Assembly: GCF_002287075.1 (NCBI RefSeq)
Contig: NZ_NSKE01000007.1
Coordinates: 186,001-250,000, forward strand
Length of the DNA: 64,000 nt
DNA from: Fodinibius salipaludis
Lineage (GTDB): Bacteria > Bacteroidota > Rhodothermia > Balneolales > Balneolaceae
Reading direction: 5' to 3'
Shown here: positions 19,336-23,910 of the stretch, in pieces
Numbering within the stretch: the stretch's first letter is position 1
How the letters are laid out: every line of letters starts with the position of its first letter
Made by a program: the position numbers and the translations under genes
The notes under the pieces: model-generated
What the model was told of the DNA's origin: nothing
Seen by the model: the letters and a program-made list of their open reading frames with translations, nothing else
Databases searched by the model: none

Positions 19336-19605
19336 ATGCATCAATCCCCAATTCAACTTTTTAAGAAATACCTTCGCAAGAAGGATATCAGCCCTCAGGA
19401 ATTTTCTCAAATATCGGGCATGCCTGAAACAGAAGTCCACGGTATTATGGAGGGCGACTTGCCTATAACAAACCTTCGGGCTCATCATTTAGCTGTAACT
19501 TTCGATACGGATGTGGAAGTATGGTTTAAAGATAACGAGCAGAAAATAAAAGAGGATGGGGTGAATCAGAGCCCCAAACAGCCGTCTCTCGTTGGTAGTG
19601 ACTGA
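19336..19605 (+). CDS. HigA-like helix-turn-helix protein (orphan)
   Basis: An 89-residue XRE-type protein. The order LFKKYLRKKDISPQEFSQISGMP, VHGIMEGDLPITNLRAHHLAVTF, DVEVWFKDNEQK matches the HigA/VapI antitoxin layout (helix-turn-helix, then the W-x-x-x-Q/E-like end). No HigB-type toxin gene lies next to it, so it is an orphan antitoxin or simple regulator. The last 13 residues run toward the repeat cluster that begins 14 bp after its stop and may be a random extension. Confidence 0.65.
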   Translation: MHQSPIQLFKKYLRKKDISPQEFSQISGMPETEVHGIMEGDLPITNLRAHHLAVTFDTDVEVWFKDNEQKIKEDGVNQSPKQPSLVGSD

Positions 19606-19618
19606 TTCTCTTTCTGGC

Positions 19619-19745
19619 GTCATCTCGACCCAACCTACCCCCACACAAGGCTACGGTTGGCAGGCGCAAGGGAGAGAACCTTGTTATTATCCCGAACAAC
19701 ACAAAACACAGATTCCTCACTTCACGATGTTCCGTTCGAAATGAC
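19619..19745. repeat. Palindromic intergenic repeat A
   Basis: Begins GTCATCTCGACC and ends TTCGAAATGAC, so the termini are near inverted repeats of each other. Internally it contains the CTACGGTTGGCAGG and GGGAGAGAACCTT type segments seen in related form in the neighbouring copies. Confidence 0.7.
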
Positions 19746-19796: not shown

Positions 19797-19882
19797 GTCA
19801 TCTCGACCGCCAGGGAGAGATCCTTGTTTTTGAAGTAGAAAAGATAAATTTCTCGCTTTCGCTACGCTTCATTCGAAATGAC
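19797..19882. repeat. Palindromic intergenic repeat B
   Basis: An 86-bp copy of the same repeat family: GTCATCTCGACC...GAGAGATCC on the left and TTTCTCGCTTTCGCTACG...TTCGAAATGAC on the right. It can fold into one long imperfect hairpin. Confidence 0.75.
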
Positions 19883-19908: not shown

Positions 19909-20467
19909 GTCATCCCGAGCGTAGCCGAGGGATCTATCATACCTCACAAAGTAATCTACTGCCACAATAGATTCCTTTTTTATACTCTTACTTATAAAGT
20001 ACATCTGCCACTACTCATTTAAACAATGTATCATATTTATATTTTATCCAGTTTATCCCGAGTACTTTATGTTGGGGTCACAGGAAATTTGTACAAACGC
20101 ATTCAAGAACACAAAAAAGCCAATAATCCCAAATCATTTACAGCAAAATACAATGTGAATCGATTGGTTTATTTTGAAGATTTTAAAGGTATTCAAAAAG
20201 CTATCAAGCGAGAAAAACAGCTCAAACGTTGGCGACGAGAAAAGAAGGTCACATTAATTGAATCTATTAATCCGGGGTGGAAAGATTTATCTAAAGAGCT
20301 GTATTTTGATAGAAGTAATTAAATTGAAAGCTATAGAAGAACATCATCTCTCCCATAATCTCGACTATTTGGGAGAGAGTAGAGAGAACTATCAGAGCAT
20401 CTTATTATTAAGCATGATAGATTTCTCGACTGCGCAATGAACACCACATTACTTCCCTCGAAATGAC
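19909..20467. mobile_element. Palindromic repeat split by a GIY-YIG gene
   Basis: The left arm (19909-19940: GTCATCCCGAGCG, GAGGGATCTATCAT) and right arm (20414-20467: ATGATAGATTTCTCGAC ... CCTCGAAATGAC) are the two halves of the same repeat family. The inner edges are a perfect 9-bp inverted repeat (ATCTATCAT 19932-19940 / ATGATAGAT 20414-20422). The GIY-YIG gene lies between the arms. I read this as a putative autonomous unit of the repeat family; the mobility is inference. Confidence 0.5.
20026..20322 (+). CDS. GIY-YIG domain nuclease
   Basis: A 98-residue single-domain protein of the UvrC-N/GIY-YIG family. It has YHIYILSS followed by VLYVGVTGNLYKRIQEHK (the GIY...YIG equivalent and catalytic Arg), the Glu in YFEDF, and a lysine/arginine-rich end REKQLKRWRREKK. 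These proteins cut DNA with a single metal. It is small, has no partner domain, and lies inside a split palindromic repeat, with several solo copies of the repeat on both sides. A repeat-maintenance role is possible but unproven. Confidence 0.9.
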   Translation: MYHIYILSSLSRVLYVGVTGNLYKRIQEHKKANNPKSFTAKYNVNRLVYFEDFKGIQKAIKREKQLKRWRREKKVTLIESINPGWKDLSKELYFDRSN

Positions 20468-20495: not shown

Positions 20496-20611
20496 GTCAT
20501 CTCGACCGGAATCTGCCGACAGGTAGATGGAGCGGAGAGATCTACAGAAGCTTACCCGTGTTAGATAGTGTGATGGATTTTTCCGCTCCCTACTGGTCGG
20601 TCGAAAATAAC
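20496..20611. repeat. Palindromic intergenic repeat E
   Basis: A further degraded copy: GTCATCTCGACCGG...GGAGAGATCT on the left and CCGCTCCCTACTGGTCGGTCGAAAATAAC on the right. Together with the arms listed above it fills the 20323-20626 gene-free stretch. Confidence 0.65.
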
Positions 20612-20626
20612 AACCGTGGGTTTTAC

Positions 20627-21745
20627 TTATAAACTATCTCGGTAGGTTCGGCGTCTTTTATGAAGCCTATTTTCATACTTTTCCCAAAGCGCCTGTATGG
20701 CTTCATTATCTTCGAGTTCAGGATTAGTCTCAACGGTTGTAATTCCATTCTGATTAAATACTTCATTCATCTCGTCAAAAATAATGGAAGTTACCCCTTT
20801 ATTCTGGTACTCGGGTTTTATCCCAATAAGATAGAACGCTGCTTTTTGGGGAAAGTATCGTGCTTTCAAAAGATGATACCATCCAAAAGGAAAGAGCTTG
20901 CCGTTAGCTTTCCGCAACGCTTTGGAGAAAGAGGGCATCGTAATGGCAAAGGCAATCAGATCACCTTTTTCATCTGCCACACAATTTATAAAATCGGGAT
21001 GAAGATATTTCACATAGCGATCCTTATAATGGGTAATCTGATCAGGTTTTATAGGAATATAAGTACTTAAATCGCTATAGGTTTTGTTGATGAGATCAAA
21101 CATTTCATCAGTATGTTTAAGAAGCTCTTTCGTATTCGAAAATCGGACATTCCGAAGGTTATATCGTTCTCTTATGAGCTTTGAAAACCGTTTAACTTTG
21201 GGTGGCGAACGATCAGGGATCTGTATCTCATACTCTACCCACTCTTTCTCTTTTTTATAACCAAGCTGTTCCAAATGAGCTGCGTAATGAGGCAACCCAT
21301 ACCACGTAATCATTGTATTCGGCTCGTCAAATCCTTCCACAAGCATACCTGCCTTATCCATATTGGAAAAGCCAAGAGGACCTTCCATAAATTCCAACTC
21401 CTTTTCTTTTCCCATCTGGCGGACTTTCCCCAAGAGTGCTTTGGAAACTTCCGGATCATCGATACAATCAAAATATCCGAAACGGATTTTGGGGATATTT
21501 AACTCGCGTACTTCAAGCCAGTTTATAATTCCTGCTATTCTCCCCACCGGCTGTTCATCGCGATAGGCTATAAAATACCTTGCCTCCACATGGTTGAATA
21601 CCGGATTCTTTTGGGAATTCATATTTTGCAGCTCATCACTTATGATAGGCGGTGCCCAGTATGGACTATCACCAAATAACAAAAATGGGAAGTGAACAAA
21701 ATCGTAAAGCTCATCATGAGCACTTAATTCACGAATAGTAATCAT
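20627..21745 (-). CDS. Large GNAT-superfamily acyltransferase-like protein
   Basis: A 372-residue protein of the YghO-like GNAT group. It has an N-terminal YFIAYRDEQPVGRIAGIIN strand-helix, the FGYFDCIDD and EGPLGFSNMDKAGMLVEGFD blocks seen in that family, and a C-terminal acetyl-CoA-like region with YLIGIKPEYQNKGVTSIIFDEM and NPELEDNEAIQALWEKY. No membrane segments are seen. The substrate is unknown. It is the last chromosomal gene before the integrated element and appears to be monocistronic. Confidence 0.8.
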   Translation of the reverse strand: MITIRELSAHDELYDFVHFPFLLFGDSPYWAPPIISDELQNMNSQKNPVFNHVEARYFIAYRDEQPVGRIAGIINWLEVRELNIPKIRFGYFDCIDDPEVSKALLGKVRQMGKEKELEFMEGPLGFSNMDKAGMLVEGFDEPNTMITWYGLPHYAAHLEQLGYKKEKEWVEYEIQIPDRSPPKVKRFSKLIRERYNLRNVRFSNTKELLKHTDEMFDLINKTYSDLSTYIPIKPDQITHYKDRYVKYLHPDFINCVADEKGDLIAFAITMPSFSKALRKANGKLFPFGWYHLLKARYFPQKAAFYLIGIKPEYQNKGVTSIIFDEMNEVFNQNGITTVETNPELEDNEAIQALWEKYENRLHKRRRTYRDSL

Positions 21746-22310: not shown

Positions 22311-23894
22311 CTATTTGAGCTCATTTTCTATGCGAGTGAAAAAATCTCCTGTTTCTACTGATTTTCTAGCCTTATATTTTAATACTTCTCTAAGATCAAT
22401 TTTATGCTTGAGCATACTTTCAATTTCATCTCCCAAAATACCTAATAATTTGGTGCTCTTACCTTCTCGAAAATTTTTTAGACAACCATCAGTAAATGGT
22501 GATATTGAAATAAATATTCCTCTTGCCCAAGAGGCCTTGCTGTCTACTTTAACTTGGAAATTATTGAGGTGTTTTGCTTCAATATTTTTATCCTGCCATT
22601 TAGCTTCAATGAGATACGCATTACCTTCAAAATTAAGGCTTCCATCAATTTGTTCGCCTACGTTTTTAAATGGCTTTCTAGGCTCTAAGCTATAGGTCTT
22701 AAATAATTCATTAAGAAAGTCCTCAAAAGCATATCCTCTAGGATGTGGCTTAAGTTTCTTTATGTCCTGAAATCTATCATTGAGCCGATCTAAAATAAAT
22801 GGATACTCATTATGATCTAAGAGTTGATATTTTTTATTGTAATGTTCTCTTTCATATTTATCATCAAGTTTGACGAGCTTATGATAGTACTTCAAAAAAA
22901 CTGGATCATGCTTACCTTTTACCTTGCCTAAGTGCTCAAGCTTTCCCTTTATAACTTTGTCCAGTGGTGGCTTACTTCTTTCTGGGTTTATGCCTGGATT
23001 ACAGTATTCTCTGTGAAACGTATCTTCAGCATTTTCATAGCCGAATTTTTCCCATGCGTGTAACATAGCTCGAATCTTTCGTACATATGAACGATTGACA
23101 TTTGTAAATTCATTTACTGTTATACCCGTGACTTCTTGCCTTTGAGAAGAATTCATCAACTTGACCTTATCATGATTTACTTCAAAACCATTGTCATTAA
23201 TAATTTCTTCCAATTCACTGCCAACTATTGTTTGCCCAGCATCATTTATTTTAGCTAAAGATTTGGGAAATACAGGTATTGTAGTTGAGAAAGTTAGATC
23301 ATCAGCATACCTAGTATAGGTCACCTTATGTTTCTTTGCTAAGCGAGTCAGTTCAGAATCCAATTTTGCACAAATAAAATTAGAAATAACTGGTGAGGTT
23401 GGGGCACCTTGAGGTAATGAATTTTTAAAAATGCAAATCTGGGCTAAAACTGTTGCTGCTTCTTCAGGAAGATTAAATGGTTTAGCCTGAAATAATCCCC
23501 AAACTCTTCCAAAGTTGATGGAAGGAAAAAAGTCTTTAATATCTACATTTAAAACATACTTTTTATCAGTATGCTTAGAGGCGCCTTCTACTATATCCCG
23601 ATCATTAACAAAACCATAGACACAAACTCTAGGGTTATAAAAAAGTCTTAGTATATGATTAAGTTTTTGCTGTAATATTTTTAAAGAATCATTAGGTGCT
23701 GAAATACTACGAGTACCACCTGATCTCTTGGGTATTTTAAACTCGTTGTATTTCTTTTCATCATCCAGTATGTATAAATAGTACTTAAGCTTATCAGAAG
23801 AAATCTCAAGTAAATCAGAAACTTCCCTGAGACTCTTAAGATTAGCAAACTTCTGTTTTAACTCTCTATTTGAATAATTTAATTCTACATCCAT
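22311..23894 (-). CDS. Retron-like reverse transcriptase fused to a restriction-nuclease domain
   Basis: 527 residues from ATG 23894; a GTG at 23909 would add five. The first 320 or so residues are a reverse transcriptase: VLNVDIKDFFPSI, LPQGAPTSPVISNF, the active-site YADD in TYTRYADDLTFS near residue 195, and VTGITVN, the VTG motif characteristic of retron RTs. A helical linker follows. From about residue 385 there is a PD-(D/E)XK (Mrr-like) nuclease domain, with RGYAFEDFLNELF, the Asp in EQIDGS and EAK in LIEAKW. A fused nuclease would be the effector of a retron or abortive-infection RT. It is the outermost cargo gene at the left end of the element, and a candidate msr-msd lies directly upstream. 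Confidence 0.88.
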   Translation of the reverse strand: MDVELNYSNRELKQKFANLKSLREVSDLLEISSDKLKYYLYILDDEKKYNEFKIPKRSGGTRSISAPNDSLKILQQKLNHILRLFYNPRVCVYGFVNDRDIVEGASKHTDKKYVLNVDIKDFFPSINFGRVWGLFQAKPFNLPEEAATVLAQICIFKNSLPQGAPTSPVISNFICAKLDSELTRLAKKHKVTYTRYADDLTFSTTIPVFPKSLAKINDAGQTIVGSELEEIINDNGFEVNHDKVKLMNSSQRQEVTGITVNEFTNVNRSYVRKIRAMLHAWEKFGYENAEDTFHREYCNPGINPERSKPPLDKVIKGKLEHLGKVKGKHDPVFLKYYHKLVKLDDKYEREHYNKKYQLLDHNEYPFILDRLNDRFQDIKKLKPHPRGYAFEDFLNELFKTYSLEPRKPFKNVGEQIDGSLNFEGNAYLIEAKWQDKNIEAKHLNNFQVKVDSKASWARGIFISISPFTDGCLKNFREGKSTKLLGILGDEIESMLKHKIDLREVLKYKARKSVETGDFFTRIENELK

Positions 23895-23910
23895 AAAAAA
23901 GGCACCCACT

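Follow-up and report, generated by a model that had tools for sequence, protein, structure and literature searches.

A GIY-YIG nuclease gene enclosed by GTC-tagged hairpins: a probable REPtron-like element from a class that shares a promoter-like motif with competence genes in Balneolaceae

A nuclease gene between tagged hairpins

The 64,000-nucleotide stretch analysed here (the window) is part of the 3.58-Mb draft genome of Fodinibius salipaludis. Between two of its host genes lies about 1 kb of DNA that comprises three solo repeats and a gene unit (Table 1). An earlier note, made from the sequence alone, had described this unit as a GIY-YIG nuclease gene between the arms of a palindromic repeat that also occurs in solo copies nearby, with a perfect 9-bp inverted repeat at the inner edges. 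Both descriptions are borne out, and the arms can be refined to complete tagged hairpins. Each arm alone consists of GTC, a stem of the form ATNNN...NNNAT and a closing C, with the tag reading GTCAY. The nuclease gene is placed between the two members of an inverted pair of such hairpins, and the solo repeats are pairs of the same kind without a gene.

Table 1. Coordinates of features at the locus and of a sigma factor-like gene elsewhere
Feature	Position	Strand	Description
Left host gene	19336..19605	+	small helix-turn-helix-like ORF (by eye); insertion edge
Solo repeat	19619..19745		inverted pair of tagged hairpins, nested insert
Solo repeat	19797..19882		inverted pair of tagged hairpins
Left arm	19909..19934	+	GTC-tagged hairpin GTCATCCCGAGCGTAGCCGAGGGATC, CGTC-type REP, tag outward
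Inner inverted repeat, left copy	19932..19940	+	ATCTATCAT
GIY-YIG nuclease gene	20026..20322	+	98 aa
Inner inverted repeat, right copy	20414..20422	+	ATGATAGAT
Right arm	20420..20467	-	GTC-tagged hairpin GTCATTTCGAGGGAAGTAATGTGGTGTTCATTGCGCAGTCGAGAAATC, nested hairpin inside, tag outward
Solo repeat	20496..20611		inverted pair, degenerate right tag GTTAT for GTCAT
Right host gene	20627..21745	-	GNAT acetyltransferase; other insertion edge
ECF sigma-like gene	L150:1531-2076	-	directly before exact motif
ECF sigma-like gene	L192:957-1499	+	directly before exact motif
ECF sigma-like gene	G000:C23 ~28.5 kb		directly before exact motif

A gapped version of the arm pattern yields 27 matches in this genome, as compared with none for the reversed pattern. 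When the five repeat stretches of the window were folded as isolated single strands, one surpassed its shuffled counterparts (z -3.3) and the others were not significant. The case for hairpins is built on their recurrence and on the compensatory changes described below, not on the folding energy of the window copies. An Rfam scan of the 64,000-nt window returned tRNAs and nothing else.

The product of the gene matches the Pfam GIY-YIG family (PF01541, E=2e-14). Its domain matches are limited to GIY-YIG and T5orf172, and an HUH tyrosine transposase is absent from them. An alignment of 17 homologues reveals seven invariant residues (Y5, Y15, G17, R25, H29, E63 and N82), all of which are kept in the window protein, and a predicted model (pLDDT 90) resembles the folds of UPF0213, Slx1 and the UvrC GIY-YIG domains. 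The reading frame is open, and a promoter-like motif typical of related genes (GTAAGG-N17-TCTTAC, see below) has been lost. Therefore, the window copy may be poorly expressed, or the unit may be decaying. Elsewhere in the window, a 532-aa ORF (22311-23909, minus strand) looks by eye like a reverse transcriptase with a YADD motif, and is possibly of retron or defence type.

The arrangement recurs across genomes and phyla

There are nine GIY-YIG matches in this genome. Tagged repeats of differing classes lie near seven of them, one being a pseudogene (L007) and two forming a tandem pair (L003, L006), and the two divergent members L008 and L009 have no tagged repeats nearby. Several unrelated units coexist in one genome.

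Scoring entire flanks for inverted repeats without use of the tag proved too noisy, and therefore a strict, tag-anchored detector was employed that accepts hairpins located no more than 200 bp from the gene. Control windows were placed more than 900 bp away. In a sample of the order (58 genomes, from which 80 regions were taken), 47 of 71 element-class genes carry a tagged hairpin on both sides, 15 carry one on a single side, and nine carry none. Among 188 control windows, none has hairpins on both sides and 28 have one on a single side. Two-sided flanking is likewise absent from the 19 other GIY-YIG genes of the order.

A tight homologue alignment was used to find a further 80 named loci in a genome collection. 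Hairpins are present on both sides of 64, as compared with 13 of 800 shuffled flanks, and on one side of a further 14. These loci are distributed among Bacteroidota, Pseudomonadota, Nitrospirota, Chloroflexota, Patescibacteria and other phyla. The same anatomy is evident on annotated replicons whose flanks were read, including those of Novosphingobium, Azospirillum, Sinorhizobium, Shinella, Rhizobium CIAT894, Aeromonas, Spirosoma, Planktothrix and Neisseria gonorrhoeae. Thus, in both samples the gene is mostly found together with its arms, as the earlier note would have it.

On plasmid AZO_p3 of Azospirillum lipoferum 4B (L177), a nuclease unit is located between sufB and sufC, two genes that usually form one operon.

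Hairpin class follows gene subfamily

When copies from different genomes are compared, the likeness of their arms climbs from 0.54 to 0.84 with the likeness of their proteins (Mantel rho 0.247). None of 500 shuffles gave a value as high, and this was also true of shuffles made within genomes. In the protein tree, clades each have their own hairpin class. Hairpin type is tied to the gene subfamily and not to the genome, which is the result expected if each protein recognises its own repeat. The stems are kept by double compensatory changes, as is evident from the pairings ATCCTGAA..TTCAGGAT, ATGCTGAA..TTCAGCAT, ATTCTGAA..TTCAGAAT and ATCCCGAA..TTCGGGAT.

Repeat abundance likewise tracks the gene, a relationship on which the earlier note had staked its proposal. 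For the GTCATCCTGAACTTGTTTCAGGATC class, at least five further repeats are present in 10 of 11 genomes that carry the gene but in only 5 of 47 that do not (Fisher p=6e-7, a value calculated for genomes that are related), and the reversed control pattern gave a count of zero in all 58 genomes. One gene-bearing genome (G021) is nevertheless almost free of GTCATCCTGAACTTGTTTCAGGATC repeats, and in five others (G004, G007, G009, G010 and G013), which hold 18-34 copies, a matching nuclease gene was not found. Solo repeats are many-fold more common than genes.

The inserted unit extends from outer hairpin to outer hairpin

Empty sites of the kind that the earlier note had envisaged do exist: in two relatives (G003 and G010; L222 and L223), the two host genes that border the unit in the window directly adjoin each other. 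The same site is occupied by a single degenerate repeat in G004 and by other DNA in G008, and related genomes differ in the copies that they hold.

In two pairs of paralogues residing at different sites (L105/L117 and L004/L007), the likeness starts and stops at the outer edges of the two hairpins, to within 2 bp. The remaining pairs have one such edge in common, and the likeness between L109 and L110 runs past the unit. The paralogous copies and the empty site thus mark the inserted unit as the DNA that the two outer hairpins delimit, the hairpins included. Among 47 elements, none shows a target-site duplication of at least 3 bp.

Competence and recombination genes carry the promoter-like motif of the element genes

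Most element genes are preceded by the sequence GTAAGGA-N14-GNTCTTAC, which corresponds to GTAAGG-N17-TCTTAC. There are 16 exact copies of the motif in this genome, and the 58 genomes together have 206, spread over 27 of them; the reversed control does not occur. If one mismatch per hexamer is permitted, 49 of 71 element genes have the motif in the 130 bp upstream of them, whereas 360 control windows yield none. Its spacing of 17 bp (rarely 18) fits a sigma promoter with -35-like and -10-like hexamers.

The same motif precedes recA, recN, radC, comM (yifB), a comEA-like gene and comEC in this genome, and recQ in relatives. Other genes preceded by it in this genome encode integron integrases, a Y1 transposase, four-helix IVP proteins and GxxExxY. 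On this evidence of shared promoter-like sequence, the GIY-YIG nucleases are tied to a putative competence and recombination regulon in Balneolaceae. Because the motif is common to genes for DNA uptake and recombination, single-stranded DNA that is being taken up is probably the substrate of the enzyme.

A gene resembling those for ECF sigma factors (TIGR02937, 57 bits, cut-off 43) abuts the exact motif in 13 genomes. At two loci that were read, this gene is followed by the motif, by a gene for a TPR protein that weakly matches anti-sigma factors, and then by ruvB. The sigma-like gene is a candidate regulator of the competence and recombination genes. LexA was also considered for this role. 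The LexA regulon of Balneolaeota likewise contains recA, but its box is the direct repeat TTACACATATTTTWTACATA (PMC7739468), and this difference from GTAAGG-N17-TCTTAC rules LexA out. We are evenly divided on a broader proposal, according to which a dedicated Balneolaceae ECF sigma factor would drive recA, recN, recQ, radC, comM, comEA and comEC, and unrelated repeat-flanked genes (GIY-YIG, IVP, RAYT and DUF559) would have gained its promoter and so act and spread during uptake of single-stranded DNA.

Some other motif-preceded genes are flanked by inverted repeats of their own type, namely those for four-helix IVP proteins (L163, L166, L168 and L194), a RAYT (L164), a DUF559 protein (L204) and GxxExxY (L151). 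Several of these flanking repeats score only about as well as the best shuffle, and recA, radC and comEA have no flanking repeats. There is also a GIY-YIG lineage (L108, L118, L123 and L135) that has the promoter motif and does not have hairpins on both sides. In some of these cases the downstream sequence looks lepA-like by eye, and the nuclease is possibly domesticated.

Discussion

We consider it likely that the hairpin–GIY-YIG gene–hairpin arrangement is a REPtron-like element, in which a GIY-YIG nuclease takes the part of the tyrosine transposase. The protein is most likely a site-specific nuclease of the Ssn type, directed at single-stranded hairpins of its own GTC-tagged class. The solo hairpin pairs would be gene-less relatives of the unit. 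The nuclease would be produced as single-stranded DNA enters the cell, when RecA is present, with the regulon defined by sequence and its control by a sigma factor presumed. Cutting at hairpins could bias the sites at which incoming DNA recombines, and homologous repair after cutting could help the unit reach new sites. Both hairpin cutting by the predicted protein and the mobility of the unit are aspects that we infer. Several observations weigh against this explanation: the absence of a target-site duplication, the five repeat-rich genomes in which a matching gene was not found, the loss of the motif and the weak hairpins of the window copy, and a repeat tail unlike the CCA described for CGTC-tagged REPs.

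Other explanations assign the hairpins a different origin. Tagged hairpins are frequent in intergenic DNA, as evident by their presence on one side of some control windows, and one might suspect that ordinary terminators or extragenic repeats, such as those around many genes, enclose the nuclease gene by accident. However, this idea is refuted by the control windows and the other GIY-YIG genes, which never carry hairpins on both sides, and the recurrence of two-sided flanking across phyla together with the congruence of arms and subfamilies leaves it with almost no probability. A homing-type invader is a more serious alternative. The hairpins would then be older genome repeats into which the gene enters by cutting and repair copying, such that solo repeats are its targets rather than its derivatives. 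The many-fold excess of solo repeats over genes agrees with this scheme, as do the five genomes in which repeats were found and a matching gene was not, and the occurrence of gene and arms as one unit in many phyla can be read in the same way. Nevertheless, the tie between arm type and subfamily across genomes implies that gene and hairpin travel together, and the site in two relatives has neither gene nor repeat. We therefore regard homing into pre-existing repeats as unlikely.

It is also possible, if doubtful, that the system serves the host. Under this explanation, hairpins would mark chromosomal sites and the nuclease would tune uptake or recombination, with the units being maintained by selection and hardly mobile. 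The promoter-like motif common to competence and recombination genes is in keeping with such a role, as are the reported tie between Ssn and transformation in Neisseria and the motif-bearing, armless lineage (L108, L118 and L123). What speaks for the REPtron-like element instead are habits of selfish DNA, which include the copy differences among relatives, the pseudogene L007, and the presence of several unrelated units per genome.

A link between nuclease and repeat is probably already known in principle. In the open-access literature, we found no paper that connects GIY-YIG proteins with REP or palindromic repeats, and by the same measure the competence-type regulon in Balneolaceae appears to be new. 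The promoter link in this family constitutes sequence evidence for action on single-stranded DNA in uptake or recombination, and is independent of the reported Neisseria work.

Comparison with known systems

Of the known systems compared here, Ssn is the closest. It is said to be a family of GIY-YIG site-specific single-stranded nucleases, an account credited to Chenal et al. in Nat Commun in 2025, and in Neisseria it has reportedly been tied to natural transformation. The N. gonorrhoeae copy (L185), which we take to be the published Ssn gene, is flanked by CGTCATTCCCGCG.. hairpin repeats and encodes a protein 43% identical to that of the window. The window protein is itself small, consists of a GIY-YIG domain standing alone and keeps the catalytic residues; it is homologous to this repeat-flanked Neisseria protein, and its cognate repeat is present in many copies in the genome. 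It is thus likely, judging from these sequence features, to be an Ssn-type nuclease. Both systems share the small stand-alone domain, the many-copy cognate repeat and a link to transformation, which is suggested here indirectly by the motif. Unlike Ssn, the present system is divided into many subfamilies within a single genome, every one of them with a separate hairpin class, and it has a promoter-like motif common to competence genes.

The nearest solved fold is that of UPF0213/YhbQ (1zg2, 1ywl). However, UPF0213/YhbQ genes occupy a separate part of the tree, have no hairpins on both sides and almost never carry the promoter motif. A 93/78 branch separates 16 of the 17 divergent rows from the element class, and the remaining one (L135) falls inside that class.

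CGTC-tagged REPs have been characterised by a CGTC or TGTC tag, a stem that begins with AT, a short loop, inverted dimers and high copy number, and a dedicated transposase was reported to be absent (Di Nocera 2013, PMC3733652). The repeats of the window type match in their tag, their AT-first stem, their inverted dimers and their high copy number. The base 5′ of GTCAY is T in 61 cases, C in 20, A in 19 and G in 9, such that about three in four fit the CGTC/TGTC tag. Stems start with A-T and T-A pairs in most arms (GTCAT...ATC), and some arms have the form GTCAC..GTC. A CCA tail is present in most, but not all, CGTC-tagged REPs (PMC3733652), whereas in the arms examined here the tail is mostly CT and the CCA form occurs in Azospirillum and Aeromonas. 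Two further differences are that some stems and loops are longer, with nested inserts, and that a GIY-YIG partner gene is a constant companion. The 2013 survey gave no answer as to the enzyme that serves these REPs, and our data point to a GIY-YIG nuclease, family by family, in many phyla.

RAYT genes with their REPs (REPtrons) and REPINs offer a parallel in arrangement, with a gene between hairpins, solo and paired repeats elsewhere, and gene-specific arms. The systems differ in that a GIY-YIG hydrolase takes the place of the HUH tyrosine transposase and a CGTC tag that of GTAG. GIY-YIG enzymes hydrolyse DNA and retain no covalent link to it, and therefore the rejoining of ends in the manner of RAYTs would be impossible for this enzyme alone. 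The resemblance to REP elements and RAYT proteins that the earlier note had proposed is supported by the recurrence of the gene with its arms, by the tracking of repeat abundance with the gene, and by arms that are specific to each subfamily.
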